DNA of 30,053 nucleotides from a virus: positions 1 to 30,053 of the IMG/VR virus record IMGVR_UViG_3300027985_001426, one strand, 5' to 3'. The translations under genes were made by a program, and so were the position numbers. The notes under the pieces were generated by a model that did no database searches, was not told the origin of the DNA, and was given only the letters and a program-made list of their open reading frames with translations. The first letter of the stretch is position 1; every line of letters begins with the position of its first letter. Positions 4,818-23,293 of this stretch are shown piece by piece.

Positions 4818-5384
4818 ATGACAGATTATAATTCAGCACACTATGGATCGGCAATAGATGCAGCTATAACCAAAGCCGCAAAGTTACCCACAATATCATC
4901 CGGCGACGCAAATAAAAAATTGGTGGTGAAAACAGACGAAACCGGTTTTGAATGCGTGGATGATAATGAAGAGACAATAGGAGATGACCTTGACACTTTA
5001 GAGGCAGCATTCGCAGCCCACCTCGTTGCCGACAATCCGCACGAAATTGAAGAGGGTGGCCAAATAACGGCAGTGCAAATATCGTCCAGGACATCCAGCG
5101 GGACATGGACAATAACGGGGGCTACAGTTGGTCGTCCAATTGTCATTGGTCTTGACCCTTCAACAGGTGGGTCGGGTGAGGTTTCAACCCAGCTTTATGT
5201 TTCGTCTGGTTCATATATAGGCTCTACAGCGAGCTCTTTGCATGACTTTATTTTGCGTTGTTCAAGTTCAATTGACTTGGCAACAAATCCATCATTTACC
5301 ATTGTTCCAACTGCAACGACAATTACCCTTGAGGTGAGTTACCACGAAGCAACATTAAGAGCATACGAATTGGGGGTGGCATGA
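4818..5384 (+). CDS. Putative tail fibre or tail spike base protein
   Basis: A 188-residue protein with AGGTG (4806-4810) upstream. Its beginning YNSAHYGSAIDAAITKA and the middle phrase AAFAAHLVADNPHEIEE resemble N-terminal regions of phage tail fibres, where a segment ending in NPH precedes trimer-forming repeats. The C-terminal half is a Ser/Thr-rich beta region. It is much shorter than a full receptor-binding fibre; the long glycine-rich fibre is encoded far downstream at 23772. It ends by ATGA overlap with the tail assembly chaperone gene, which is the usual partner of fibre genes. It may therefore be a connector between tail and fibre, or a short fibre. The assignment is moderately supported. 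Confidence 0.5.
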   Translation: MTDYNSAHYGSAIDAAITKAAKLPTISSGDANKKLVVKTDETGFECVDDNEETIGDDLDTLEAAFAAHLVADNPHEIEEGGQITAVQISSRTSSGTWTITGATVGRPIVIGLDPSTGGSGEVSTQLYVSSGSYIGSTASSLHDFILRCSSSIDLATNPSFTIVPTATTITLEVSYHEATLRAYELGVA

Positions 5385-7082: not shown

Positions 7083-8099
7083 ATGCCTCTTTATCAAGTA
7101 GAAAGTCCTATAAATAAAGCTATGCAAGGGTTAAGCGATGCGTCTAACACCTATGCTTCAATGGACAAAGAAGAATATGTGCAAACAGACCCACTCGCAC
7201 CGGTAAAGCTGGCTGTTGCTGGTGCTGAGATTGGATACCAGGGAGGAAAGACCTATGATTATGTCAAAAGTGTCCTTGGAACCGGTGGGGACAAGATAGG
7301 TACACAAGGTACCGTCACAACAAACCAGACAATAGGCCAGTCAATACAGAGCCCCGCAGTAAACCAGGCACCGATTCAACAGGCGGGCTCTACAACAGGA
7401 ACCCAGGCCGTGACTGGTTCATCTGAGCAGGCTATGCAAACAGTAATACCGGAAGGTTTGTCTGGTAGCACACCCGGGGGGATTGCAACCGAATCCATTG
7501 GGGCTGGTGGTGGTGGTGCCCAAGCAAGTGAAACCATAGGGGCTCAACTCGCAGGACAAGATGGCGGTGCGGTGGCCGGTCAACAAACCGGGCAGGCAGG
7601 AGGGCAAGTTGTTGGGCATGGCTCTGAGCAGATCGTGGGCCAGGCAATGGGGGAACAGGCGTCGGGATCAGTGACCGGCGAAATGGTAGGGCAAACAGCA
7701 GGGCAGGCTGGCGGGCAAGTTGCCGGACAAACAGGTGGTGCCGTTGCTGGGGATGCCATGGGCAGTGCCATGGGTTATGGTGCTGGCGGGTCCGTTGCTG
7801 CTGGTGCCGGGGCTGGTGGGGCTGCCATGGGAGCTGGTGCCGGGGCTGGTGGGGCTGCCATGGGAGCTGGTGCCGGGGCTGGTGGGGCTGCAGCCGGTAT
7901 GGGTACCGCAGTTGGGTATGGTGCCGGTGGAACCATTGTCACTGCCGGCGGCGCCACAGTAGGCACAACTGCAGGCACCGCCGCCGGAGGAGCTGCATCA
8001 GGGGTGGCCACTGGCGCCTCTACCGGTTCGGCTGCCGGGCCAATAGGGGCAGTCGTCGGGGCCGCCGTTGGATTAATAGCCGGATACCTTCTTTCATAA
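7083..8099 (+). CDS. Gly/Ala-rich glycine-zipper protein, probable ejection protein
   Basis: A 338-residue low-complexity protein with AAAGGTG just upstream of its ATG. Residues 1-75 are ordinary. Residues about 80-240 are Gly/Gln/Ala/Thr-rich, with recurring GQ steps such as GQTAGQAGGQVAGQTGG. Residues about 240-270 are a perfect 11-residue tandem repeat rich in Gly and Ala. The C-terminus PIGAVVGAAVGLIAGYLL is a classical glycine zipper that can pack in a membrane. It lies between two ejection-type genes, so it is a good candidate for a membrane-inserting part of the ejection channel. I know no exact homologue. The repeat block could change in length by slipped recombination. Confidence 0.55.
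   Translation: MPLYQVESPINKAMQGLSDASNTYASMDKEEYVQTDPLAPVKLAVAGAEIGYQGGKTYDYVKSVLGTGGDKIGTQGTVTTNQTIGQSIQSPAVNQAPIQQAGSTTGTQAVTGSSEQAMQTVIPEGLSGSTPGGIATESIGAGGGGAQASETIGAQLAGQDGGAVAGQQTGQAGGQVVGHGSEQIVGQAMGEQASGSVTGEMVGQTAGQAGGQVAGQTGGAVAGDAMGSAMGYGAGGSVAAGAGAGGAAMGAGAGAGGAAMGAGAGAGGAAAGMGTAVGYGAGGTIVTAGGATVGTTAGTAAGGAASGVATGASTGSAAGPIGAVVGAAVGLIAGYLLS
7800..7891 (+). repeat. 33-bp perfect tandem repeat (about 2.8 copies)
   Basis: Copies start at 7800, 7833 and 7866. The first two are identical over 33 bases, and the third matches for 26 bases before diverging. Each unit encodes eleven residues of the type AGAGGAAMG inside the glycine-zipper protein. Perfect identity at the DNA level, including third codon positions, implies recent duplication. 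Confidence 0.9.
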
Positions 8100-9733: not shown

Positions 9734-12700
9734 ATGACATATACATTTAAGCCGGTTGATTACGATCCCTTTGCAGAAAATATTGTCCAAGATCAACAAA
9801 CTGAACCGGAGCAGGTTGAAAATCCTGGTTATGTTTTTAAGCCTGTTGATTATGACCCATTCGCCCAGCAAGAACAAACCGAACATGAGCAACCAAAGGG
9901 TTATGTCGGTGCCCTTGTTGGTGGAGTTGGTGACGCTTTCCAGAACGTAAGAAGCGCCTTTAATACTTATGTCACTGCAGACGATGAAGCGATCCGTAGG
10001 ACCGCAGAGCATATGCAGACCAACCCCAATGCCACCCCCGAAATGGTAGGCTTTCAACAGGACTTGGCGAGCTACGGCAAACCAGACGGAACATGGGAAG
10101 CTATCAAGAACATTGGCCGGGCAGCCTGGAATAATAAAACCGGTGCTGCCCACACTGTAATATCACAAATCCCAAATTCCGGCGTTGTTATGGGTTCAGC
10201 AGGGGTAGGAGCTGCCGTTGGTGGAGCCTTAACCCTTGGCAGCCCGATAGGTATTTTTGTCGGAGGTTTGGCCGGCATGATGTTTGGAAATACAACCGTT
10301 GAGACTGGTGCCTTCGCAAATCAAAAAGCCATGGAGGATGGGGAATACAGCAGAGGCGATGTTATCAAGGGTGGGGTGGTAAAAGGTGGTGTCATAACCG
10401 CTGTTGACTCATTAACCCTTGGAGCAACTAAGTGGCTTACCGGGTCGGCTGGCCGGGCAGCCATGAAAGCAACCGAGCAGGTATTGGTTAAAAACGGCAT
10501 AAACGTAGCAGACAAAACAGCGGTTCAAATGGCTTTTACTGACGCAAGGATTGTCAGAGAGGCTACAAAGGCCGCTGAAATGGCAGCATCGGCAGCAGAG
10601 AAAAGCACCGGAATGATGGCCGGGAAAGCAGCCTCTTTCGCTCTCGACATGGCAGGGGAAGGTGTTGGAGAGTACGCCGGTTCGTACTTTGCGCCAGGCA
10701 TGAACCCTGACATTCAGGATGCAATCATGGAGTCTTTAATGTCCATGCCTCAGAGCGCCGGCGATGTTGCTATAGGCAAAGCCTTAAACCTCCTTGATAA
10801 AAAGCCAGTCCCGGGCTCTGACCAGGTAACACACGACACAGGTGAAACAGTTTCGCCAGAAGTTCAAAAGCCTTTCTCTTTTGAATCCCATGAGGGTGAC
10901 GATACTTACAAGCGGTGGGAGGAACAGATAAACCGGCAGAAAGAAGTTCAGGCCATGAGAATGGAGCCGGAAGACCCTACCGATACAGCTATCAGGGGGC
11001 TTTATAAAGCCAATGATTACCGTATGGCCGGCATGGAGTCTGTTCCGGATTATTCCATGAAAGGCAACGCCAACCTACTTGCAAAGAACATCAGTGATTA
11101 CAGGAGGTTACAGAGTCAACAGGCAAGCGAGGAGGCTTTAAACGCCAGGCAAGAAAACATGGTAAACAATCCCGATCAGTTGTTTAGGCCAGGGGTTGAA
11201 CCTAACCCATTTGAAAGCCTCAAGCCTGCACAGCCAACCGCTTTAACAGGACAGGCTCTTGAGGACCAGGTGTCAACGGGCCAGGTTAACAGAAACTATG
11301 ACGCCAGGTTGAACGACCGTTTTAACCGCATTGATAACGCCACCTCTCCAAGCGAAGTTGACCAGGTGCTTGCAGAGAACAGCCAAGACCCGGGGAATAA
11401 CCACTTCGGTGACACCATGTTGAGGAACGCAGCACAGCAGCGCATGGATGCACTCTCCCTTAACAGGGTCCAGCAACAAGGATTGACTGGCCAAGAGGCT
11501 TATTATGAGACCAGGCTTGAAGACCGATTTAACCGGGTAGACGCGGCGAACACTCAAGAAGACCTGCAGGCCATCATAGACGAGAATCAGGCAGACCAGG
11601 ACAGGAACGATTACGGATCGGGCATGCTGAACAATGCTGCACAGCAGAGGCTTGACAAAATGTCACTGGATAGCGGAGTCACTGCCGATAAAGCGCCAAT
11701 GCTTAAATTTACCTTTGACGCAATGCCAGAGTCACAGCAAGCCGGGCCTATTCCTTCTGAGCCCGGGCCTGTTGAACCGGTGGATATTGCGGGTCCTGCA
11801 GAACCGGAAAAAGCCCCCCACGAGATCACCCCGGGCAACATAAACCACAACCCCACGGAAGGACAAAAAGAAGCTGGAAACTATTTAAAAGACCGCATTA
11901 AAATTGACGGCAACCGCATTGCACTTGAGAACCATGACGGCTCTGTTCGGTCTGGAACGGACCAGGACGGCAATAAATGGCAGTCAGAAATGCACGGGCA
12001 CTATGGTTACTTTGAACGCACAGAGGGCAGGGATGGTGACCAGGTTGATGTGGTGGTGAAGCCAGGAACCGAAACGAGCCCGAAGGTTTTTGTCGTTGAC
12101 CAGGTGGACCCCAAAACCGGAAAGTTTGACGAGCACAAGGTAATGCTCGGGGCTGAATCTGCCGATGAAGCTAAGGACATGTATCTTGCTAACTACGAGC
12201 CTGGATGGGATGGTTTGGGGGCCATTACAGAAATGAGCCAGGACGAGTTTAAAACCTGGATCGGTGACGGCAAGAGAAAGAAAAAGGCTCTCTCATACGT
12301 TGAGCAGCAGGCACCCAAAAGACTAACCTATGAAGAGTTTAAGGGTCAGTATCGGAAGCAGTTTTACGAAATGAACAAATTCACTCCGGATCAAGTTGGG
12401 ACCCGCATTCATGCCGAAGAGCTTGGTAAGCTTGAGGATGAATACCCGGAGTTCAGCAAGCAGCTTGAAGCGGAACTTGAAAGAGAATATGCCGACGAGC
12501 AGGCGAAAAAGAAAGAGGCCAAACCGGAACCAACTCCGGAAGAGTCGGGGCTTGCAGAGGGTGGCCGGGTAAAATGGAAAAATAAAAAGGGTGAATACGT
12601 TTATGGAACACTGGCCGGAAAGAACCCCAAGGGCTGGTGGCACATAAACAAAGAAGGTGGAGGCTCCTCTATTATGCCTGGATCAAAGCTTGAGCTTGCC

Positions 12701-15700
12701 GGCATAGAAGGTGAAAAGGCACAGGAAACCATCATACCCAAAGAGCCAGCGTCTCCAATTCCGGAGGACACCAGGAGAAAGGCACATGCTGCAGCCATTA
12801 AATCAGGTGGAAGCGTTTTGGTATGGCAGCACCCACAACATGGGCATTGGGTTGTTTCTAACCTAGGGCCCGGGCCTGGTTTGAACACCAAGACCGATAC
12901 TTTTGCTGTCCAAAAAGACGGCAGTGTCTCCTTGTGGCGTGGAAAAGACGAAAAAATAGATGAAGGCAACCAGAAAACTAAGACTTTTGAGGATGCAAAA
13001 AAGTACGACATATACACCACAAAAGTAAACGTCAATGGCAATATTGAGGATCGCTACGCTTTGCGTGGAGATCATCCTCGTGGTTCTGGCGACGAACTTT
13101 TTAGCACCTATGCAGATGCAGATGAATACAGAGCCGAAAAAATAAAACGCGACGAGGCAAACGAAAAAAGCCAGAAAGAGTTTGAGGAAAGAGAGGAGGC
13201 TCGATTAAAAAAAGAAGAAGAAAAAAGAGCTGAATACGAGGATGTTGACGGTTACGCCAACGGCATGAATAACCTGCAAAAAGGACGGGCTTTGAAAACC
13301 CTGAATAAGCAGATCATGTCAAATGGTAAATCCACTACCATTAAAGAATTGATCCGGAAGCTTGTATCTGAGGGCAGAACAATAGGTGAGGTGCAGGGCG
13401 TTCGATCCCTTGAAGACGCCAATGGAATATTTTTGGATGAAAAAGACCTGACAAAAACAGGTATGGATTATGCTGAATTTTTGATTTCAAAGCGAGATCA
13501 AGATAGCCAGAAATTAGCAGAAGACGAAGACGAAGACGAGTTCTCCCCGGACAATTTAATGAAGGAGTGGGGCAAACAGGCCACAGAGAGGAAGGAGCAA
13601 AAGGCGCAAAAGCAAAAAAGCGTCAAGCCATCAGAGCCCAAGCCCGTACCCCAAAAACAACCTGCTGCACCAAAAGAACAAGCCAAGGCAAAAGCCACTG
13701 AGGTTAAAGACCACATAGCCAGCGCAATGGACAAGTTCAAACAGATCAATAAAATACTTGGTGATCGAGGAAGTTTTTCCACGGAAGAAACAGACGAAAA
13801 CATTTATAAGGAGATCAAGGTTCTTCTGCAGGGGGCGCTGGAAGACATTATAGCTGCAGGTAAGGCAGCAAAGGACTTTGTGTCTCTGGCTATGGATGCA
13901 CTTTCAGAAGATGCCACCCCATATTTTGAAAGATTTGTCCGCGATGACATGGTTGACCCGAGACAAAGAAATGATGATATTATAGACACAACTCAGGAGG
14001 GCAAAGGAAATGAAAAAGGACGATCTGAAATTCAAGGCGTGGGTAAGGAAGACGAAGGCGTTCTTCCTGGAGGACGAGTCGGACTCTTGGCCGAGGATGA
14101 ACACACCGAAACAGCAGGAAATGCTGTCGTTCTGGAAACACCAGTGCCCGAAGATGTACGCGGACCTGAAAAGTCAGGGGATACTGGAGGACACGGCATA
14201 CGTTCTGGAATGCAAGATGCACCAGGAATGGTACAAGCAGGTAGCGGCAGGGGTGAACATGTCGGACGCCAGGGCGGAAGCGGAGCAGAATTGGCTGATG
14301 ATGGAGCCGGAAGAACCGGAGATAATGTCAGCTTAGAAAACTATCATATTGCGGACCCTGAATCTATCATAGGCGGAACGCCAAAGGTTCGCTTTCAGAA
14401 AAATCAAAACGCCCTGGAAACATTCTCCAGGGTTTCCAGTGAAGGAAGGAACCCAACCGATGCAGAGCGCGACGCTTTGGCTGCGTATATCGGTTGGGGC
14501 TCCTTTGGCCAGGAGCTCTTTCAGGGGTCATGGGAACGCCCTGTCTATCAAGATGGGTGGAAGAAAGAAAACGACTGGTTGAGGGACCACCTCGGGGAGT
14601 CTGCCTGGAAGTCAGCACAAAGCTCAATCATTAACGCCCACTATACAGACCCTCCAACAGTAATGGCCATGTGGGACATAGCAAAGCGCCTTGGCTTCAA
14701 GGGCGGTAGAGTCCTTGAGCCGTCTATGGGCGTTGGCAATTTCTTTGGCCTCATGCCTAAAACACTCAAAGCTAAAAGCGATCTTACCGGAATAGAACTG
14801 GACGAAACAACCGCAGGAATAGCGAAGATGCTTTACCCTGCAGCAAACATTCAGCAGATGGGATACCAGGAAAGCAAGACCGGTGACGGCTTTTATGATC
14901 TTGTCATTGGGAACTGGCCATTTGCTGCAGATGGGCCGGCAGACAGAAGGTACAATAAATATCGCCTGTCTCTGCATGATTATTTCTTTGTAAAAGGGCT
15001 TGACCAGGTTAGGTATGGTGGCCTTGTTATCGGCATCACATCCTCCGGAACCATGGATAAAATGAGCAAAATGGCTCGCCGGCAGATGGAGCGCCGGGCT
15101 GACCTCGTTGCAGCCTACCGCATGCCTATGGGTGCATTTAAGAAATATGCAGGCACCGCAGTTGTGGCAGATATTATAATCCTCAAAAAAAGAGCAGAGG
15201 GAACAGCGCCACATCATAGCGCTGCTTGGCAGGACACCGCTGTTTTAGGAAAGGCCAGCGACGGCAAAGAGGTTTATGTAAACGAATACTGGACCCACAA
15301 GCCCGAAAACGTTCTTGGGCACATGACCATAGGCCATGGTACCACAAGGGGCCGTGACGGAATGATCGTGGAGCGCAGGCCAGGCTATGAGAAGGTTTTA
15401 AGCGATCTTTATAACCGCCTCCCCAAAGATATAATGACAAAGCGCGGCAACGTTGACCATATCCACTACATTTCAAACAATACCACTGAGCGCCAGAACA
15501 GCGTAACTATAGGCGAAGATGGTGGCCTATACCTTGTAAAAGGTGAGCGCCTTGCCCGCCTTGATGATGTGTTGGCATATAAGGTCAAAAGCGAAAAAAC
15601 CAGCCAGGACAGGGAACAGCAGATCGCGTCCCTGGTTAAGATACGGAACCAATATGGAAAACTCCTGGACATGGAAAGAGACGGAGCGAAGGAAACCGAG

Positions 15701-18700
15701 GGGAACCGGAAACTTTTAAACCAGCTCTACCAGAGCTTTGTAAAGAAACACGGCCCCATTAACGGCTCCTATGCTCTGCAATACTTCTGGAAAATAAAGG
15801 AGCCAATGCACCCGGCTCTTGCTGCCCTTGAATACAATGCCGGAACAAAAGACAAACCTGTCTACAAACCTGCAAAGATATTCACCGAATCAACACTTAG
15901 AAGCAAGCCCAAGATAAAAAATCCGAGCATTGCAGATGCCTTTATCCTCTCTCGGAATGAGGTAGCAAGGACTGTTGATATTGATTTTATCGCTGAAAAG
16001 GCAGGGGTTACACCGGAGGAGGTTAAAAAAGAGCTTATAAGTAAAGACGCCATTTTCGAGACACCGGATGGTAACTTCGAGGTTAAGGACATTTACCTAT
16101 CAGGAAATGTGCGCCAAAAGCTCATAGCCGCAAAAGAGGCTAAAGCCCTTGGCATGAACATGGACCGGAATATAAAAGCCCTTGAAGCCGTAATTCCGGA
16201 GGATATTCCATACTTCAACATCGAAGCCAACCTTGGTGCAACGTGGATACCTGCAGAAACATACAGGCAGTTCATATCCGAAATGGTCAACCTTCCTGAG
16301 AACATGGCCAATGGGATACGCCTCACAGCCTCAACTAATGGATGGATAGTCAAATTTGACAACGCGAGCGACATAGACGGAAGGGTGGAAGCCCGGACTA
16401 TGTGGAGCACTGACCGCGCATCTTTCACGAGGATTATCAAAGCCGCGTTCTCTGGACAAAATATAGTTATCAAATCCATGGACATGGAAGGTAACGAGTT
16501 CACAGATACCGAGGCGTCAACCGCAGCAAATGAAAAGGTAGATGCTTTCCGCGAGGCTCTTAGGGACTGGATATGGAAAGATGTTGAGCGCCGCGTAATG
16601 CTCGAACGCCATTATAATGACATCATGAATGCCTGGGCTAACCCATCTTATGACGGCTCTTTCATGACTTTTGACGGAATGATGCTGCATATAGGCGACA
16701 ATGAATTTAACCTGAGATCACACCAGGTAAACGCTATTTGGAGAGGCGTCGCCAATGGTCGTGGGCTTTACGCCCATGAGGTTGGAACCGGTAAAACTTT
16801 CACTATGGGGGGCGTAGCCGTTGAATCAAGAAGATATGGTATAGCCAGAAAGCCTTTAATCCTTGCTCACAATGCAAACAGCGCGAGCGTAGCAGATGAT
16901 ATTCAGGCGATGTACCCTGGGTCCAAAGTCCTTTACATCGACAATATGAGTCCGGACACCATAGAGCAGAAGCTATACCAAATCGCAAACGATGATTGGG
17001 ACGCTATAGTCCTGCCTCACTCCTTGATGGACAGGTTAACGCTTTCAGAAGAAACGTTGAACCGAATAGCTCAAGACGAGATCATGGCCTTGGAGGAAGA
17101 CGCCATAGCTTCGGCAGCCGAGGAGGGATTCGACATTGAAGGCATGCTTGACGATCCGGAGGAGCTCAGAAAAGTAAGGGGCGCAACGACGGCGAAGGAG
17201 CTGGTTAAGCAGCGCAACAGGATCATTGCAAACATCCAAAAGCAAGTTCAGGCCTCTACCCGGGAAAATGCCATACCGTTTGAAAGGCTTGGCATTGACA
17301 TGTTGATTGTTGACGAGGCCCACGAGTTTAAGAAACCACCACTGTCAACAAAGATGAGGGTGAAAGGTTTGAACACGAACCCGTCAGGGAAAGCCATAGC
17401 TCTTCACTTCTTGGCGTCATATATCAAAGAGGTGAACAGTGGTAGAGGGGTCCACATTTTTACCGGCACACCAATTACAAACACCCTGAACGAAATCTAT
17501 AACCACATGAGGTACATCATGTCCGACGAAATGGAGCGGGCGGATGTATCGGCATGGGATACCTGGTTTAACACCTTCGCGTCAGTTGAGTCTGATCTTG
17601 AGAGAACAGCCACGGGCGAATATGAAATGGTTTCCAGGCTTTCAGAGTTTCACAACGTTTCTGAGCTGAGGCGGTTTGCTGGTCAGTTCATGGATATTGT
17701 CTTTGCGGATGATATGCCAGAATTTGTGCCGAGAAAAACAGAAAGCGGAAAAGACCTTTACTCCGAAAATTTGACCGATGCAGATCGGGAAGAGTTGTTG
17801 AATGGCCGGGTTGATAAGGGCGCCCCCATGGGCAGGCCATATAAAAAGCTTGTCAACGAGGTTGCCCCCATGTCTGACGAGCAAAGGGTTATTCTGCAAA
17901 CGCTGATAGAGCGTGCCGAGTTTTTTAGAAACTCGACCCCCAAAGATCGCAGGGCAATGATGCTTTCCGGCGATCCAAGCAACCCCGTAATCGTTGAAAC
18001 TCATGCGGCCCAAGCAGGGTTTGACCCGCGCCTTTACGACAAGGAGCTGTCAGACCATCCAACCAATAAAATAAACAGGTGCGTTAAAAACGTGCTGAGG
18101 CACTTCAACGAGCACGACAAGGCCTGCCAGGTTATATTTATGGACAATGGATACAATGACACGTCTGTAAGGTCTGCCGGCAGGGACATGGACGGGAACA
18201 AGATCAAGGTCAAGGTTGACGTTTTCAATGCAGCCAAGGACATAACCCAAAAGCTTATTGACGGCGGCATCCCTGAAAACAAAATAGCTGTTGTCAACGG
18301 TCCTGTTTCAAAGAAAAAGCGCAAAGAGATTTCCGACATGGTCAGCTCTGGTGAAATACGGGTGGTTATTGGGCTCACTGACACCCTGGGTACCGGTACC
18401 AACATGCAGGAAAACTTGAGGGCAATGCACCACCTTGACGCACCATGGATGCCCGGGGAACTTGAGCAGAGAAACGGGCGTGGCCATCGCCAGGGGAACC
18501 GGTGGAACACGGTCTTTGAATACCGGTATATCACCGAAGGAATAGACGCGAGGCGCTGGCAGGTCTTGGCTAAAAAGCAAAAGATCATTGTGGATTTTTT
18601 GAAAGCCAAGGACGGTGTCCGCTCTGTTGGCGGCGACGTTGTTGATATGAACACGAGCGATCTTGACGAGATCAATTCTTCTTTTTCTGATGCGGCCGGG

Positions 18701-21700
18701 GATGCCAGGATATTGATCCGTGAAAAGCTGAGAAAGGATATTGATAAGCTTGAGCGTAAAAAGCGGACCCATGGCCAGGGCATAGTCGAGGCAAAAGAGA
18801 AGGCTCGGGAGCTGGAAGAAAAAGAAATACCTGCACTGAAAAGAAAAATTGACAACATGCAGGCCGACTTAGATGCCTACCAGGATGTTGTCGGAGACAA
18901 GTGGGAGATAACCTTAGACGGAAAAGTTTACACAGACCGCAAAGAAGCAAGTGCGGCGCTGGAGAAAATAACCATACGGCAAGAGGGTATGGCCAGGGGC
19001 TCCAAGGAAACAATAGGGCATTATCGTGGTTTTGACATTACGGTCCAGTACGGCATAAACAAGGCATACAGCCTTGAGGCCGAACACCGGTATTTCATCC
19101 AGCCGGCAATAGGAAGCATAGATTATCTGACTAGAAACTTTGCAAAGAACTTGGCTGATGAAAGGGTTAAGCTGCAGGAAAAGGAAAGTTCAGTTGAAAA
19201 GTTTAAGCAGGTAGCCAAGGAGCCTTTTGCCCAAGAGGATGCTTTGCAGGGCAAAAAGGACATGCTCGACCAAGTTGAGCAGGACATGGCCGCAAACCCC
19301 GACGCTCCACCTACCTGGTTATCTCAGGGCGCACCCATAGGGACCATGGTTCGCTATGAAGGCAAAGAGTGGGAGGTGGAGGGCCACAGGAGTGGGGAAC
19401 ACGGGCATTACCTTCTTATCAAGGGCGATGACCGCAAAGAGGTTATTAGCTACCTCGATGCCAGGGACGAGAACAACCTTCCCATATACGAACCACGCCA
19501 AGACAATGCAGAAGGAGGAGAGCCCCAATTCTCAACGACCAAATACACAGGAACAATCCCGGGCGAGATAGTAACCCTTAAGGATATGCAAAAAAGGTTT
19601 GTCGGTCAAAATGTAACCATAGGGGAAGATGGAGCAGTTCAGGTCTTAATGGACAATGGCAAAACCCTACGGATAACATCGGTTGAGCAGGTAGATGATG
19701 AAAACATAAGGGTTGCCATTGAAACCGGAAGGATGGGCAAAAATGGAAAAGTCCTTGGCATGTATAAAAAGAGTGAGATCATCCTCAATAAAAACTTTGC
19801 CACAACCTTTACCCGGGACCATGAGCTTTACCACTTCTTTGTTGATATGGGCATGCTCACACCTCAAGACCGGTTGGCAATTATGGGTGAGTTTAAAAGG
19901 CTCCAAGCTTTTGGTCTTGCCAAATTCAAGGCCAATAAATCAAGGGAGGAGAACGAGGCCAATACATTCGCTCAAATGCTTCATGACCGTGAGAAATACC
20001 GGGAAACAAAGCTTGGGCGTATCATGCAAAAGGTTACAGACTTCATTGACGCCATAATGCACATTGGCCGCACCTCTGCGAGAAAGATTGCTATAGAGGT
20101 TGAGACAGGGAAGTTTTATCGCCGAAAGATAGGTGTAAACAAATTTGCACCGAATTCAAAGTTCAGCGCTTTGGAAGGCACAACCATAAATAACACGCAA
20201 GAAATAAAAAATGTGTTCAAAGAAGCTGCGTCTGAAGGTGACAAGGTTTATCTTCGTTTTACATCAAACCCTGATCTGGATATGGAAAGACAAACATCTA
20301 TACATATGACAGACGCAACGTCTTTGGAAGAGGCAATGGAAATGACTGGCCTTGATGAAGATGAGCTTGTAGAAATGGAAGACGAAACGTGGGGACAAAT
20401 AATAGATGGCCTTGCCGCTTTTGAGGTTGAAGGGATTGAAGATGTTGAAAATATTTTATCAGATTCATCTAATGCAAACGCTGAAATAATTCCTGAAAAC
20501 AAAAGATTTGCATACTTATTTACAGGTGAAGACGCAGATGGTGACGTTCCGGACGGAACGTCTTTTTATCCTAAAAAATATATTCGTGTAAAAACAGATA
20601 AAGACATTAACACATCAATATCTAAAATAGATACAAAATTTCAAACCTCTGACGACATTGTGAAGGAGCTTTTCCATACCCGGGGAACGTTTGTGGATGG
20701 CATAAAGAAGGCCATAGACGACAATAAAACAGGGCTCGCGGATAAGGTCATAGCCGAGACGGTTGACAACCTTCACTTTATCAAGAAACGCCTGGGGGAT
20801 GAAGCATATAAGATGCACCGGGCTCTTACCGGTATAAAGTCGGCAACATTCTCAATGTTCCTTGAGTTCGGAAAAATGCAGTGGTCAGGCAATGGAATAG
20901 AGGTTATCAATCCGGATGAAAGGGCCGGGTTCCTTAAATTCCTGCGTGACATTGGCGACGACTGGCAGGACTTGTTTTACTGGATAGCTGCCAAGCGATC
21001 CGAGGAGCTTGAAAAGGATATTCAACCAAATGGCCAGGGCCGTGAGAACTGGATAACTCCAGAGCGCAGGGAACGCTTGTTGGAGAAGACGGGGGAATAC
21101 TCAGCCAAGGGAGAGTCGTGGGCCAGCCTTAATGAAAAATTTCAGGAGTATAATAAAAACGTTTTGGATGTAATGCAGGAAGCCGGGCTTATCAACAGGG
21201 AGTCCAGGGCCTTGTGGGAGTCTAATGTGTACCTTCCTTTTTACCGCGTACTGGAAGACAGCGTAACCCGGGAGGAGTTTGTATCCGGACCAGTACAGGC
21301 CAACCAGCATATCACGTCACAAATACGGAGACTGAAAGGCCGGGCCGAAATGATAGGCGATCCCCTGGAGAACGTCCTTAAAAACTGGATGTATGGGCTC
21401 GATGCTGCAGCGCGGAACAGGGCAAGAGATAAGGCTTTCGACGTTGGAACATCACTTGGCCTGATAAAAGAGGTTCCCAAAAAAGACCTTGTTAATATTA
21501 TAGGGTCACAAACTGTTAAGACATACGCCATTATAAAAGCTGGGGCAAGTAAAGCCAGAGCCATTTTTGATACCATGGACGAAGCCAGGGCAGCTATTGA
21601 TACGCTCACCCAACAAGGAAAGGGTCCATACCGGGTAGAACCCCGCAAAGAGATCAAAGTAAGATTTGGCTCGATGAAGGATTATGGCATCCTGTCTTTC

Positions 21701-23293
21701 CAGAGAGATGGAAAGTCAATTTACTTTAAGACTGATGATGTTGACCTGTACCATGCCCTTTGTGAAGTTGATACCGCGGCATTCAATAACCTGTTTATGA
21801 AGCTCATGGGCGGTGCAAAGCGCATGCTTTCATACAGCGCCACATTCGGGCCGGCTTTCCGGTTGAGGAACTTCATAAGGGATTCTGTTCACACAGCCGT
21901 AACCAACCCCAATTACCGGTTATTCATAGACTCTGCCATTGGGTTTGTTTCATCCATGAAAGAGGATGCCGACTATGTCCAATTCATGGCGTCCGGCTTC
22001 GGTTTTGGTTCTTCTTATGTAAATTCAGATAACCCGGATGTTGGATCAAAATACATTAAGCACATACTTAAAACAGAAGGTAAGAGCGCCCTTGATAGAA
22101 TACTGACAACCCCTCTCAAGGTCCTCCATGTTTGGGAAAAAATAGGAACTGCGTCAGAGAACGCGGCCCGGGTAGGATTATACAAAAGGCTCAAGGCCAA
22201 AGGGGAAACATCTTTTGATGCTGCATTTGAAGGGCGTGACCTGATGGACTTTTCCATGATAGGACATTCTCAAAGTGTTCAGACCCTTGCCAGGATTATA
22301 CCTTTCCTTAATGCCAGGTCACAGGGTTTGTATAAGCTTGGCCGGGCTGCCTTTGACAACCCAAAATCGTTCTTGCTCAGATCGGCGCTTATGACAACAG
22401 CATCAATTTTGTTGTGGTCTCTGTATAAGGATGATGACAGGTATAAGGAACTTGAGGATTGGGATAAGTGGTCATATTACCATTTTTGGCTTGGTGACGA
22501 TCATTACAGGCTGCCTAAGCCCTTCGAGATAGGCGCTCTATTTTCTTCACTGCCCGAGTCTGTGGCCAATGTTGCCAACGGAACAGAGGAAGGTAAATAT
22601 GTTTGGGATTGGTTTAAGTTTACCGCCAATTCTGTGTTCAATGTTGATATTCCCCAACTATTCAAACCCATTTTGGAGGAGCGGTTTAATTATGACACAT
22701 TCCGGGAGCGCCCAATAGTTCCGGAGAGCATGCAGTCTCTTAGGCCGTCTGAGCAGTTCAACCCATGGACAAGCGATACCATGAGGGCTTTAGGCCAGGC
22801 CACCAACATTTCCCCGTTAAAGCTTGAGCATTACGTCAATGGGTACCTATCTACCATAGGGAGCATGGGTCTGTTTATAACAGACATTATGACCCGTAAC
22901 GCAATGGGATACCCATCCAGAATGCAGGGGAGCCCCAATCCTTTCCTTCTGCATATCCGTGACCAACACGAGCCAAGGTCGTCAAAAAACGTGACAAGGT
23001 TTTATGATCTGTATGAGCAGATAGACTCTGCAACAAGGACATTGAAAAACTATATCAAGCTGGGTGAAACGGAAAAGGCAAAGGATTTTTTTGCCGAGAA
23101 CAAAGACATCATGCAGTTAAAGCCATACGCCAATAAAATACGGTCACAGCTTGCAGAACTTAACAGGCTTCAGCAGCAGGTTATGATGGATAAAAACCTG
23201 AGCCCAGCGGAAAAGAGGGCAAGGGTTGATACCATAAGCGAAAGGAAAAGGGCTATCACAAGGCAGCTTTTTTCTCAGCTTAAGAGCCATTAA
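9734..23293 (+). CDS. Giant polyvalent protein: InPase-like, N12 methylase-helicase, HExxH peptidase, LPD38
   Basis: A single uninterrupted frame of 4519 residues; AGGA lies nine bases upstream of the ATG. Order of parts: a duplicated FKPVDYDPFA motif (residues 3-44); a hydrophobic glycine-zipper region (150-185); a duplicated 57-residue module (521-646); an inorganic-pyrophosphatase-like domain (about 705-845); a Lys/Glu-rich coil (about 1133-1166); a Gly-rich linker (1426-1534) overprinted by another gene; an N12-class adenine methylase (about 1545-1790) and helicase (about 2330-2960); a coiled coil (about 2990-3060); an HELYH peptidase-like domain (about 3280-3460); an AT-rich insert (about 3478-3636); and an LPD38/PLxRFG-type C-terminal region (about 3770-4350). 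DarB of phage P1, which combines methylase and helicase, is carried in the capsid and protects phage DNA from type I restriction. Position after three ejection genes suggests this protein is also packaged and injected. Whether it is cleaved afterwards is unknown. Confidence 0.85.
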   Translation: MTYTFKPVDYDPFAENIVQDQQTEPEQVENPGYVFKPVDYDPFAQQEQTEHEQPKGYVGALVGGVGDAFQNVRSAFNTYVTADDEAIRRTAEHMQTNPNATPEMVGFQQDLASYGKPDGTWEAIKNIGRAAWNNKTGAAHTVISQIPNSGVVMGSAGVGAAVGGALTLGSPIGIFVGGLAGMMFGNTTVETGAFANQKAMEDGEYSRGDVIKGGVVKGGVITAVDSLTLGATKWLTGSAGRAAMKATEQVLVKNGINVADKTAVQMAFTDARIVREATKAAEMAASAAEKSTGMMAGKAASFALDMAGEGVGEYAGSYFAPGMNPDIQDAIMESLMSMPQSAGDVAIGKALNLLDKKPVPGSDQVTHDTGETVSPEVQKPFSFESHEGDDTYKRWEEQINRQKEVQAMRMEPEDPTDTAIRGLYKANDYRMAGMESVPDYSMKGNANLLAKNISDYRRLQSQQASEEALNARQENMVNNPDQLFRPGVEPNPFESLKPAQPTALTGQALEDQVSTGQVNRNYDARLNDRFNRIDNATSPSEVDQVLAENSQDPGNNHFGDTMLRNAAQQRMDALSLNRVQQQGLTGQEAYYETRLEDRFNRVDAANTQEDLQAIIDENQADQDRNDYGSGMLNNAAQQRLDKMSLDSGVTADKAPMLKFTFDAMPESQQAGPIPSEPGPVEPVDIAGPAEPEKAPHEITPGNINHNPTEGQKEAGNYLKDRIKIDGNRIALENHDGSVRSGTDQDGNKWQSEMHGHYGYFERTEGRDGDQVDVVVKPGTETSPKVFVVDQVDPKTGKFDEHKVMLGAESADEAKDMYLANYEPGWDGLGAITEMSQDEFKTWIGDGKRKKKALSYVEQQAPKRLTYEEFKGQYRKQFYEMNKFTPDQVGTRIHAEELGKLEDEYPEFSKQLEAELEREYADEQAKKKEAKPEPTPEESGLAEGGRVKWKNKKGEYVYGTLAGKNPKGWWHINKEGGGSSIMPGSKLELAGIEGEKAQETIIPKEPASPIPEDTRRKAHAAAIKSGGSVLVWQHPQHGHWVVSNLGPGPGLNTKTDTFAVQKDGSVSLWRGKDEKIDEGNQKTKTFEDAKKYDIYTTKVNVNGNIEDRYALRGDHPRGSGDELFSTYADADEYRAEKIKRDEANEKSQKEFEEREEARLKKEEEKRAEYEDVDGYANGMNNLQKGRALKTLNKQIMSNGKSTTIKELIRKLVSEGRTIGEVQGVRSLEDANGIFLDEKDLTKTGMDYAEFLISKRDQDSQKLAEDEDEDEFSPDNLMKEWGKQATERKEQKAQKQKSVKPSEPKPVPQKQPAAPKEQAKAKATEVKDHIASAMDKFKQINKILGDRGSFSTEETDENIYKEIKVLLQGALEDIIAAGKAAKDFVSLAMDALSEDATPYFERFVRDDMVDPRQRNDDIIDTTQEGKGNEKGRSEIQGVGKEDEGVLPGGRVGLLAEDEHTETAGNAVVLETPVPEDVRGPEKSGDTGGHGIRSGMQDAPGMVQAGSGRGEHVGRQGGSGAELADDGAGRTGDNVSLENYHIADPESIIGGTPKVRFQKNQNALETFSRVSSEGRNPTDAERDALAAYIGWGSFGQELFQGSWERPVYQDGWKKENDWLRDHLGESAWKSAQSSIINAHYTDPPTVMAMWDIAKRLGFKGGRVLEPSMGVGNFFGLMPKTLKAKSDLTGIELDETTAGIAKMLYPAANIQQMGYQESKTGDGFYDLVIGNWPFAADGPADRRYNKYRLSLHDYFFVKGLDQVRYGGLVIGITSSGTMDKMSKMARRQMERRADLVAAYRMPMGAFKKYAGTAVVADIIILKKRAEGTAPHHSAAWQDTAVLGKASDGKEVYVNEYWTHKPENVLGHMTIGHGTTRGRDGMIVERRPGYEKVLSDLYNRLPKDIMTKRGNVDHIHYISNNTTERQNSVTIGEDGGLYLVKGERLARLDDVLAYKVKSEKTSQDREQQIASLVKIRNQYGKLLDMERDGAKETEGNRKLLNQLYQSFVKKHGPINGSYALQYFWKIKEPMHPALAALEYNAGTKDKPVYKPAKIFTESTLRSKPKIKNPSIADAFILSRNEVARTVDIDFIAEKAGVTPEEVKKELISKDAIFETPDGNFEVKDIYLSGNVRQKLIAAKEAKALGMNMDRNIKALEAVIPEDIPYFNIEANLGATWIPAETYRQFISEMVNLPENMANGIRLTASTNGWIVKFDNASDIDGRVEARTMWSTDRASFTRIIKAAFSGQNIVIKSMDMEGNEFTDTEASTAANEKVDAFREALRDWIWKDVERRVMLERHYNDIMNAWANPSYDGSFMTFDGMMLHIGDNEFNLRSHQVNAIWRGVANGRGLYAHEVGTGKTFTMGGVAVESRRYGIARKPLILAHNANSASVADDIQAMYPGSKVLYIDNMSPDTIEQKLYQIANDDWDAIVLPHSLMDRLTLSEETLNRIAQDEIMALEEDAIASAAEEGFDIEGMLDDPEELRKVRGATTAKELVKQRNRIIANIQKQVQASTRENAIPFERLGIDMLIVDEAHEFKKPPLSTKMRVKGLNTNPSGKAIALHFLASYIKEVNSGRGVHIFTGTPITNTLNEIYNHMRYIMSDEMERADVSAWDTWFNTFASVESDLERTATGEYEMVSRLSEFHNVSELRRFAGQFMDIVFADDMPEFVPRKTESGKDLYSENLTDADREELLNGRVDKGAPMGRPYKKLVNEVAPMSDEQRVILQTLIERAEFFRNSTPKDRRAMMLSGDPSNPVIVETHAAQAGFDPRLYDKELSDHPTNKINRCVKNVLRHFNEHDKACQVIFMDNGYNDTSVRSAGRDMDGNKIKVKVDVFNAAKDITQKLIDGGIPENKIAVVNGPVSKKKRKEISDMVSSGEIRVVIGLTDTLGTGTNMQENLRAMHHLDAPWMPGELEQRNGRGHRQGNRWNTVFEYRYITEGIDARRWQVLAKKQKIIVDFLKAKDGVRSVGGDVVDMNTSDLDEINSSFSDAAGDARILIREKLRKDIDKLERKKRTHGQGIVEAKEKARELEEKEIPALKRKIDNMQADLDAYQDVVGDKWEITLDGKVYTDRKEASAALEKITIRQEGMARGSKETIGHYRGFDITVQYGINKAYSLEAEHRYFIQPAIGSIDYLTRNFAKNLADERVKLQEKESSVEKFKQVAKEPFAQEDALQGKKDMLDQVEQDMAANPDAPPTWLSQGAPIGTMVRYEGKEWEVEGHRSGEHGHYLLIKGDDRKEVISYLDARDENNLPIYEPRQDNAEGGEPQFSTTKYTGTIPGEIVTLKDMQKRFVGQNVTIGEDGAVQVLMDNGKTLRITSVEQVDDENIRVAIETGRMGKNGKVLGMYKKSEIILNKNFATTFTRDHELYHFFVDMGMLTPQDRLAIMGEFKRLQAFGLAKFKANKSREENEANTFAQMLHDREKYRETKLGRIMQKVTDFIDAIMHIGRTSARKIAIEVETGKFYRRKIGVNKFAPNSKFSALEGTTINNTQEIKNVFKEAASEGDKVYLRFTSNPDLDMERQTSIHMTDATSLEEAMEMTGLDEDELVEMEDETWGQIIDGLAAFEVEGIEDVENILSDSSNANAEIIPENKRFAYLFTGEDADGDVPDGTSFYPKKYIRVKTDKDINTSISKIDTKFQTSDDIVKELFHTRGTFVDGIKKAIDDNKTGLADKVIAETVDNLHFIKKRLGDEAYKMHRALTGIKSATFSMFLEFGKMQWSGNGIEVINPDERAGFLKFLRDIGDDWQDLFYWIAAKRSEELEKDIQPNGQGRENWITPERRERLLEKTGEYSAKGESWASLNEKFQEYNKNVLDVMQEAGLINRESRALWESNVYLPFYRVLEDSVTREEFVSGPVQANQHITSQIRRLKGRAEMIGDPLENVLKNWMYGLDAAARNRARDKAFDVGTSLGLIKEVPKKDLVNIIGSQTVKTYAIIKAGASKARAIFDTMDEARAAIDTLTQQGKGPYRVEPRKEIKVRFGSMKDYGILSFQRDGKSIYFKTDDVDLYHALCEVDTAAFNNLFMKLMGGAKRMLSYSATFGPAFRLRNFIRDSVHTAVTNPNYRLFIDSAIGFVSSMKEDADYVQFMASGFGFGSSYVNSDNPDVGSKYIKHILKTEGKSALDRILTTPLKVLHVWEKIGTASENAARVGLYKRLKAKGETSFDAAFEGRDLMDFSMIGHSQSVQTLARIIPFLNARSQGLYKLGRAAFDNPKSFLLRSALMTTASILLWSLYKDDDRYKELEDWDKWSYYHFWLGDDHYRLPKPFEIGALFSSLPESVANVANGTEEGKYVWDWFKFTANSVFNVDIPQLFKPILEERFNYDTFRERPIVPESMQSLRPSEQFNPWTSDTMRALGQATNISPLKLEHYVNGYLSTIGSMGLFITDIMTRNAMGYPSRMQGSPNPFLLHIRDQHEPRSSKNVTRFYDLYEQIDSATRTLKNYIKLGETEKAKDFFAENKDIMQLKPYANKIRSQLAELNRLQQQVMMDKNLSPAEKRARVDTISERKRAITRQLFSQLKSH
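9740..9865 (+). repeat. Duplicated 12-residue N-terminal motif of the giant protein
   Basis: The pattern Y-x-F-K-P-V-D-Y-D-P-F-A occurs at residues 3-14 (9740-9775) and again at residues 33-44 (9830-9865), exactly 30 residues apart. The DNA of the two copies differs at several third positions, so the amino-acid motif has been kept while the codons drifted. Such conservation suggests a functional short motif, for example a packaging or docking signal. That role is inference. Confidence 0.8.
11294..11670 (+). repeat. Tandem duplicated module inside the giant protein
   Basis: Residues 521-577 and 590-646 are two copies of one module, 69 residues apart. Both begin with an aromatic/acidic step and RLxDRFNRxD (RLNDRFNRIDNA, RLEDRFNRVDAA) and end with N-A-A-Q-Q-R-x-D. 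The DNA has diverged, so the duplication is old. Function is unknown; a helical docking repeat is possible. Confidence 0.75.
11850..12270 (+). other. Inorganic-pyrophosphatase-like domain of the giant protein
   Basis: Residues about 705-845. The run HYGYFERTEGRDGDQVDVVV resembles the acidic metal-binding core of type I pyrophosphatases (D-G-D-x-x-D-V). It continues through FVVDQVDPKTGKFDEHKVML to YEPGWDGLGAITEMSQDEF. This matches the InPase domain known from phage and mobile-element polyvalent proteins (PF18823 as I recall). The acidic residues are present, so metal binding is plausible. Its job in these proteins is not established to my knowledge. Confidence 0.7.
13995..14000 (+). promoter_or_regulatory. 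Internal Shine-Dalgarno site AGGAGG
   Basis: A perfect AGGAGG lies nine bases before the ATG at 14010, inside the giant gene but serving a different frame. It is as good as the best ribosome sites in the window and decides the call of the overlapping gene. Confidence 0.7.
14010..14336 (+). CDS. Overlapping gene inside the giant gene, 108-residue hypothetical protein
   Basis: An ATG with a perfect AGGAGG nine bases upstream opens a 108-codon frame, shifted +1 relative to the giant frame and ending at TAG 14334-14336. The product is a well-mixed helical sequence with six Trp, for example LKFKAWVRKTKAFFLEDESD, MLSFWKHQCPKMYADLKSQG and ARAEAEQNWLMMEPEEPE. It looks like a normal globular protein. 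In the same bases the giant frame yields a Gly-rich, featureless linker (its residues 1426-1534) between domains, which is what overprinting would leave. Most codons of the small frame end in G or C, unlike its neighbours. I recall similar short phage proteins ending in a WLMLEPE-type motif, but cannot verify this here. Function is unknown. It could be an independent gene trapped when two flanking genes fused. Confidence 0.7.
   Translation: MKKDDLKFKAWVRKTKAFFLEDESDSWPRMNTPKQQEMLSFWKHQCPKMYADLKSQGILEDTAYVLECKMHQEWYKQVAAGVNMSDARAEAEQNWLMMEPEEPEIMSA
14400..18650 (+). other. N12-class adenine methylase plus helicase domains (DarB-like)
   Basis: Residues about 1555-2970. Motif I of the methylase is EPSMGVG (E1662-G1668). 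The catalytic motif IV reads N-W-P-F (1727-1730), a variant of N-P-P-F/Y that keeps Asn, Pro and Phe. A YLSGNVRQKL phrase between the halves is a hallmark of N12-class methylase-helicase fusions. The helicase has Walker A GTGKT (2351-2355), DEAH (2527-2530), TGTP (2577-2580) and motif VI Q-R-N-G-R-G-H-R-Q-G (2912-2921). All key residues of an SF2/SNF2-type ATPase are present. The likely substrate is double-stranded DNA. Confidence 0.85.
19575..20110 (+). other. HExxH zinc metallopeptidase-like domain of the giant protein
   Basis: Residues about 3281-3460. H-E-L-Y-H at 3363-3367 fits HExxH, and a Glu at 3408 within ENEANTFAQML could be the third zinc ligand, about 40 residues later. The spacing and the E-A-x-x-F-A phrase resemble ImmA/IrrE-type peptidases, which cleave repressors or regulators. 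Zinc binding is likely from the motif; the target is unknown. Possible roles are self-processing of the giant protein or cleavage of a host factor. Confidence 0.6.
20543..20567 (+). terminator. Terminator-like hairpin inside the giant gene
   Basis: GACGTTCC (20543-20550) pairs perfectly with GGAACGTC (20555-20562) around the loop GGAC, and five T residues follow at once (20563-20567). By structure this is a rho-independent terminator, but it lies deep inside a coding frame, in an AT-rich insert. It may lower transcription of the last quarter of the giant gene and everything downstream, or be a relic of the insert's origin. Confidence 0.45.

Follow-up and report, generated by a model that had tools for sequence, protein, structure and literature searches.

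A small gene very probably nested in the +1 frame of giant DarB-like phage genes, with distant kinship to TnpV

Can one stretch of a giant phage gene encode two proteins at once, and, if so, which of the two frames is older and what might the smaller product do? The first-pass annotation raised this question for positions 14010-14336 of a viral sequence, where it described a 108-codon gene overprinted in the +1 frame of a much larger one and explained it as a once separate gene, captured when two neighbours fused. The window, as we use the term, is the whole stretch of DNA that was analysed: 30,053 nucleotides, positions 1 to 30,053 of IMG/VR virus record IMGVR_UViG_3300027985_001426. Its relevant features are these:

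9734..23293, + strand: host gene for a 4,519-codon polyvalent DarB-like protein (InPase, methylase, helicase, LPD38)
11861..12262, + strand: InPase domain (PF18823) of the giant protein
13995..14000, + strand: Shine-Dalgarno AGGAGG of the nested gene, with a 9-nt spacer before the ATG
14009..14335, + strand: giant-frame segment over the nested gene, a Gly/Asp/Glu/Arg-rich spacer, predicted to be unfolded, stop-free
14010..14336, + strand: putative nested gene (P0001), 108 codons in the +1 frame of the giant, for a TnpV-like protein of five predicted helices
14342..15298, + strand: methylase-like domain of the giant (by homology), directly 3' of the nested gene
16706..18496, + strand: helicase region of the giant, from ResIII PF04851 to Helicase_C PF00271 (Pfam)
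22433..22891, + strand: LPD38 domain (PF18857) of the giant

The host gene resembles the DarB-like, polyvalent methylase-helicase proteins (Iyer et al. 2017, PMC5512222) in its InPase, methylase-like, helicase and LPD38 domains. As in DarB-like proteins, methylase and helicase lie in one polypeptide, the helicase recognized through Pfam and the methylase-like domain through annotated homologues. Many phages and viral contigs have methylase segments that share 32-79% identity with the part of the giant after the nested ORF, and these relatives are often annotated as DarB-like antirestriction protein or DNA methylase. In the relative JC1, proteomics has shown such a protein to be carried in the virion (PMC9144972). 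Elsewhere in the window, the product of 2869-4614 matches the internal virion protein family phrog_511, which fits a position of the giant within a virion gene module. At one related locus (L004:8001-8982), the giant frame is interrupted inside the methylase segment, probably by an assembly or sequencing error.

The nested ORF has a strong start signal of its own. It opens with an ATG at 14010 and closes with a stop codon at 14334-14336, and an in-frame TAG lies 9 codons 5' of the ATG; the position, strand, frame and length first given for it were all exact, as were the AGGAGG, its spacing and the ATG. This Shine-Dalgarno and ATG combination is stronger than those of all the other +1-frame ATGs of the giant ORF (158/158). 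Across the family, the median hybridization to the anti-Shine-Dalgarno is -6.9 kcal/mol for nested starts (n=51) versus -2.5 kcal/mol for the other +1-frame ATGs of the same ORFs (n=4,800; p 1.6e-28, with loci partly non-independent). A few members have a weak Shine-Dalgarno (e.g., L077 at -5.0 kcal/mol). The ORF therefore brings its own ribosome-binding site and start codon, as a genuine nested gene should, and it is annotated as a separate gene in none of the phage records examined.

Ribosomes might instead enter the small frame from the giant's through a programmed +1 frameshift, producing a fusion of the giant's N-terminal part and the small protein. Such a fusion is encoded in Sinorhizobium phage PBC5 (L009, L027), where the giant is broken just 5' of the nested gene and its N-terminal 2,095 codons run straight into the small frame (orf33). 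In several members, the +1 frame also runs on without a stop for 30-120 codons upstream. However, the PBC5 break may be either a sequencing error or a real frame change, and the Shine-Dalgarno and start codon are conserved. Furthermore, a +1-frame stop stands 2 codons 5' of the nested ATG in six phages (L006, L008, L010, L017, L018, and L059), so that the whole small frame is unreachable by an upstream frameshift in those phages. We regard frameshifting as very improbable. Sequence conservation suggests, rather, that ribosomes start at the nested Shine-Dalgarno and ATG on the giant's mRNA, and internal initiation of this kind would couple the supply of the two proteins.

The openness of the +1 frame is, by itself, non-significant in the window. 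When synonymous codons of the giant protein were resampled, the +1 frame stayed open in 15% of trials (P=0.15), and chance openness given the giant's amino acids is higher still in GC-rich relatives. An open frame could thus be a by-product of the composition of the giant's linker, or mark a conserved nucleic-acid element rather than a gene. The reverse resampling, given the small protein, left the giant frame open in 0/1000 trials, with about 8 stops expected in the window. What is unusual, therefore, is the lack of stops in the giant frame where it crosses the small gene.

Substitutions in the overlap follow the codons of the small frame. In coding DNA, substitutions concentrate at third codon positions, and position 1 of the giant's codons is position 3 of the small frame's. 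Among 14 disjoint phage pairs, substitutions at giant positions 1/2/3 numbered 558/408/371 in the overlap and 440/286/1518 downstream (p~1e-117 for the contrast), and giant position 1 exceeded giant position 3 in the overlap in every pair (14/14). A further 22 pairs, partly related, point in the same direction (377/186/164 in the overlap versus 467/246/2226 downstream). When the giant gene of the window was compared with four relatives, a distance at which the signal is near saturation, the nested interval was the sole bin where position 3 did not lead. The substitution pattern thus speaks for purifying selection on the nested frame. Within the overlap, amino-acid variability is about the same in the giant frame as in the third frame, which is unused; the giant frame therefore seems to be kept open and to be nearly free in other respects. 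Since substitutions track the small frame's codons, and since its amino-acid sequence is conserved, also where it stands free, and is predicted with confidence to fold, we consider a mere by-product of composition or a nucleic-acid element scarcely credible. The giant contains a second long +1-frame ORF (window:19713-20057, 114 codons, TTG start); the substitution pattern does not shift there, and we take it as a chance ORF.

Related phages have the nested gene in the corresponding position. A tblastn search with the 108-amino-acid product against phage records matched two phages of Pseudomonas (36.8% identity over 76 amino acids, E 9e-8); the match falls in the +1 frame of each phage's giant gene, and no gene is annotated there. 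A homologous or similar +1 ORF lies upstream of the methylase segment in every one of a dozen relatives that we read (Erwinia, Klebsiella, Pseudomonas, Vibrio, Sinorhizobium, Agrobacterium, and Burkholderia phages, and viral contigs). Seven nested proteins from these relatives retrieved 46 viral and 15 genome loci. The giant's methylase segment (14342..15298), a query that is blind to the nested gene, retrieved 80 viral loci by itself. With an iterated profile, the small protein was found in 156/166 loci and was nested in 152 of these 156, always in +1; the other four entries come from two free-standing genes that were each retrieved twice. The family comprises 127 distinct sequences, or 85 clusters at 70% identity.

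The loci found through the methylase alone show how regular this arrangement is. After removal of near-duplicates, 70 non-redundant loci remained, and in 65 of them a homologous ORF occupies the corresponding position, always in the +1 frame; across the methylase-found loci, the nested copy lies a median of 39 nt ahead of the methylase segment. Of the five others, L141 has a TnpV nested at the same place (E 1.4e-11), L147 and L152 have other or divergent +1 ORFs there, and L125 is cut by a contig end. Only L153, the sole such locus among the 70 giants, has no nested ORF at that position. The frame is thus conserved across relatives. We also looked for relatives that retain the giant and its linker and have stops in a recognizable small frame, a pattern that would have spoken against a second gene, and found none among the relatives examined. 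Several cases stand apart: Bcep22-like loci (L013, L080, L081, and L082), Y7 (L078), and 8P (L077) have an unannotated +1 ORF at the same place, but these ORFs are different or very divergent, and their homology is uncertain. Those of the Bcep22-like loci have a strong AAGGAG-type Shine-Dalgarno.

The two frames differ in their predicted structure. AlphaFold2 models the small protein as five helices (pLDDT 89.8, pTM 0.80, 51 aligned sequences). Applied to the giant frame of this DNA segment, it gives no secondary structure (pLDDT 57.5, pTM 0.14), on a shallower alignment of 24 versus 51 sequences. The Gly-rich character first ascribed to the giant frame over 14010-14336 is confirmed: the segment is Gly/Asp/Glu-rich, with no predicted fold. 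The terminal WLMMEPEE, which the first-pass annotation had noted as seemingly familiar from small phage proteins, proves to be the family's conserved C-terminal motif, [WH]L(L/M)xEPE / YLFPPEE.

Database searches with the small protein were largely silent. The window protein alone has no significant match in Pfam or PHROGs, the family profile finds nothing significant in the PDB, and Foldseek with the predicted fold finds no PDB match at E<=0.001. The best VIA-align candidate, 2apl (function unknown), scores Z 5.9, under the chance level for helical bundles, and we do not accept it as a structural relative. In a viral structure library, the only good match is Q8W6J4_2 (prob 1.00, E 0.0096), a piece of a long protein that may be PBC5 orf33. 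Relatives also match the "endolysin" family phrog_938, which we discount; the match probably reflects the ending of PBC5 orf33 in the small-protein domain. As single-protein queries against viral contigs, neither P0001 nor one TnpV gave any match.

Homologues of the small protein also occur as separate proteins, as a protein search had been expected to show if the gene were real. In Corticibacter populi (L061), the small protein is the product of its own gene with a clear Shine-Dalgarno. In Pseudidiomarina sediminum (L071), it forms the N-terminal part of a 262-amino-acid protein that adjoins McrBC genes. The C-terminal part of that protein (L071:7974-8762, with the McrBC restriction genes alongside) is hydrophobic and probably membrane-spanning. 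Neither genome contains a clear giant, with weak generic methylase matches at most, and a plasmid search with the L061 protein gave no match.

The small protein appears to be distantly related to TnpV, the PF14198 protein of Tn4451-type elements. The window protein itself does not match the TnpV model (gathering cut-off 27 bits). However, the nested ORFs at the same position in L141 (44.8 bits) and L162 (33.4 bits) pass this cut-off, those in L057, L058, and L163 fall just under it, and several family members have sub-threshold matches to TnpV in Pfam. Direct profile-profile comparison of the window family with TnpV is weak (E about 1e-3, probability 9-19%), and the proposed kinship is therefore transitive, through these intermediates. 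For the TnpV-type N-terminal half, YG..R..FLKEH...Y..LL.G.L, the evidence consists of these weak profile-profile and sub-threshold matches; at the other end, TnpV closes in ELIY, while the window protein closes in W/HL(L/M)xEPE.

TnpV is also found nested. In six gut contigs (L076, L168, L170, L171, L172, and L174) and three Firmicutes plasmids (L175-L177), the TnpV gene lies wholly inside an open SNF2/methylase frame, in +1, and in the plasmids the giant frame is of low complexity there. Nesting was judged here by the open frame; in L175, the annotated SNF2 start is upstream of TnpV. The overlap is partial in L169 and absent in L173. In the Monoglobus plasmid (L177:4160-10351), RefSeq places TnpV at 5022-5354 and the start of the SNF2-related gene at 7271, although the SNF2 frame has no stop from 4160 onward; the giant's start seems to have been lost from the annotation because TnpV was called.

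Taken as sequence evidence, its presence at the same place in nearly all related phages, together with TnpV in some Firmicutes plasmids, argues that the nested ORF is no chance frame. We conclude that 14010-14336 is very probably a real, translated protein-coding gene in the giant's +1 frame, and that it is almost certainly ancient. The central claim of the first-pass annotation, that this DNA codes in two frames at once, is thus supported by conservation, by the substitution pattern, and by separate homologues.

The small gene is most simply taken as the older of the two frames, since it is conserved, is predicted to fold, and occurs alone, while the overlying giant frame is a spacer that lacks conservation. 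On this view, the information resides in the small gene, and the giant frame serves as a flexible linker, free of stops, between the giant's N-terminal part and its methylase-helicase part. This linker may have been laid over the small gene when the flanking coding sequences were joined. The proposed fusion of two neighbours fits an older small gene under a passive giant spacer, but no certain pre-fusion locus was found among the loci examined, so this part of the original proposal is borne out less directly.

What the small protein does can be suggested only tentatively. We favor a partner that is produced together with the methylase-helicase module, possibly a chaperone or a brake before packaging or transfer, because nesting is found both in phages of proteobacteria and in Firmicutes plasmids, and this module is the main part that their giants have in common. 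Equally tentatively, TnpV and its phage relatives may be a single family of obligate partners, encoded in cis, that chaperone or inhibit the anti-restriction protein which is injected or transferred, and they would have stayed nested in +1 across Gram-negative phages and Firmicutes elements. Free-standing genes for TnpV or the small protein with no giant nearby count against obligate partnership. Such copies make an independent role as likely as the partner role: the protein may have a job of its own (e.g., mobile-element maintenance), with nesting the result of historical fusion and genome economy and the partnership illusory. This would account for L061 and L071, in genomes with no clear giant, and for TnpV genes beside recombinases or resistance genes with no SNF2 nearby. 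It is hard to reconcile, unless the pairing is useful, with nesting before the methylase having held across very divergent phages and Firmicutes plasmids.

An excisionase-like (recombination directionality) function is less probable than either, and we think it unlikely. It was postulated for the TnpV of Tn4451 from homology with lambda Xis (PMC3158075). TnpV can adjoin serine recombinases, whereas the nested gene lies inside a virion or transfer gene with no adjoining integrase. Xis is a winged helix with strands, while the fold predicted here is all-helical.

Nested overlapping genes are a known kind, and this family is apparently unreported. In the open-access papers searched, we found no report of the nested gene and no description of TnpV as a nested gene. 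The polyvalent-protein review (PMC5512222) mentions neither, and the passages searched in the JC1 paper (PMC9144972) do not mention the nested gene. PhiX174 E in D and Rz1 in Rz are comparable: there too, one gene wholly encloses a second, which is read in a shifted frame from a start of its own. They differ in that the gene nested here is apparently older, with free-standing relatives, and the outer frame late and passive. We know of no sequence relation between the nested gene and PhiX174 E or Rz1.

The polarity of this overlap is unusual, with a hidden frame that appears old and structured and a visible frame that appears to be a late, passive linker. Nested genes in large tailed phages are seldom sought, because gene callers discard them, and nesting may explain some misannotation, such as that of the Monoglobus plasmid. 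With the gene described here, the translation of nested genes can readily be put to the test, and DarB-like anti-restriction proteins gain a possible partner that is so far unstudied. If the obligate-partner reading is true, it would reveal a general, overlooked two-in-one design in phages and in conjugative and mobilizable elements.
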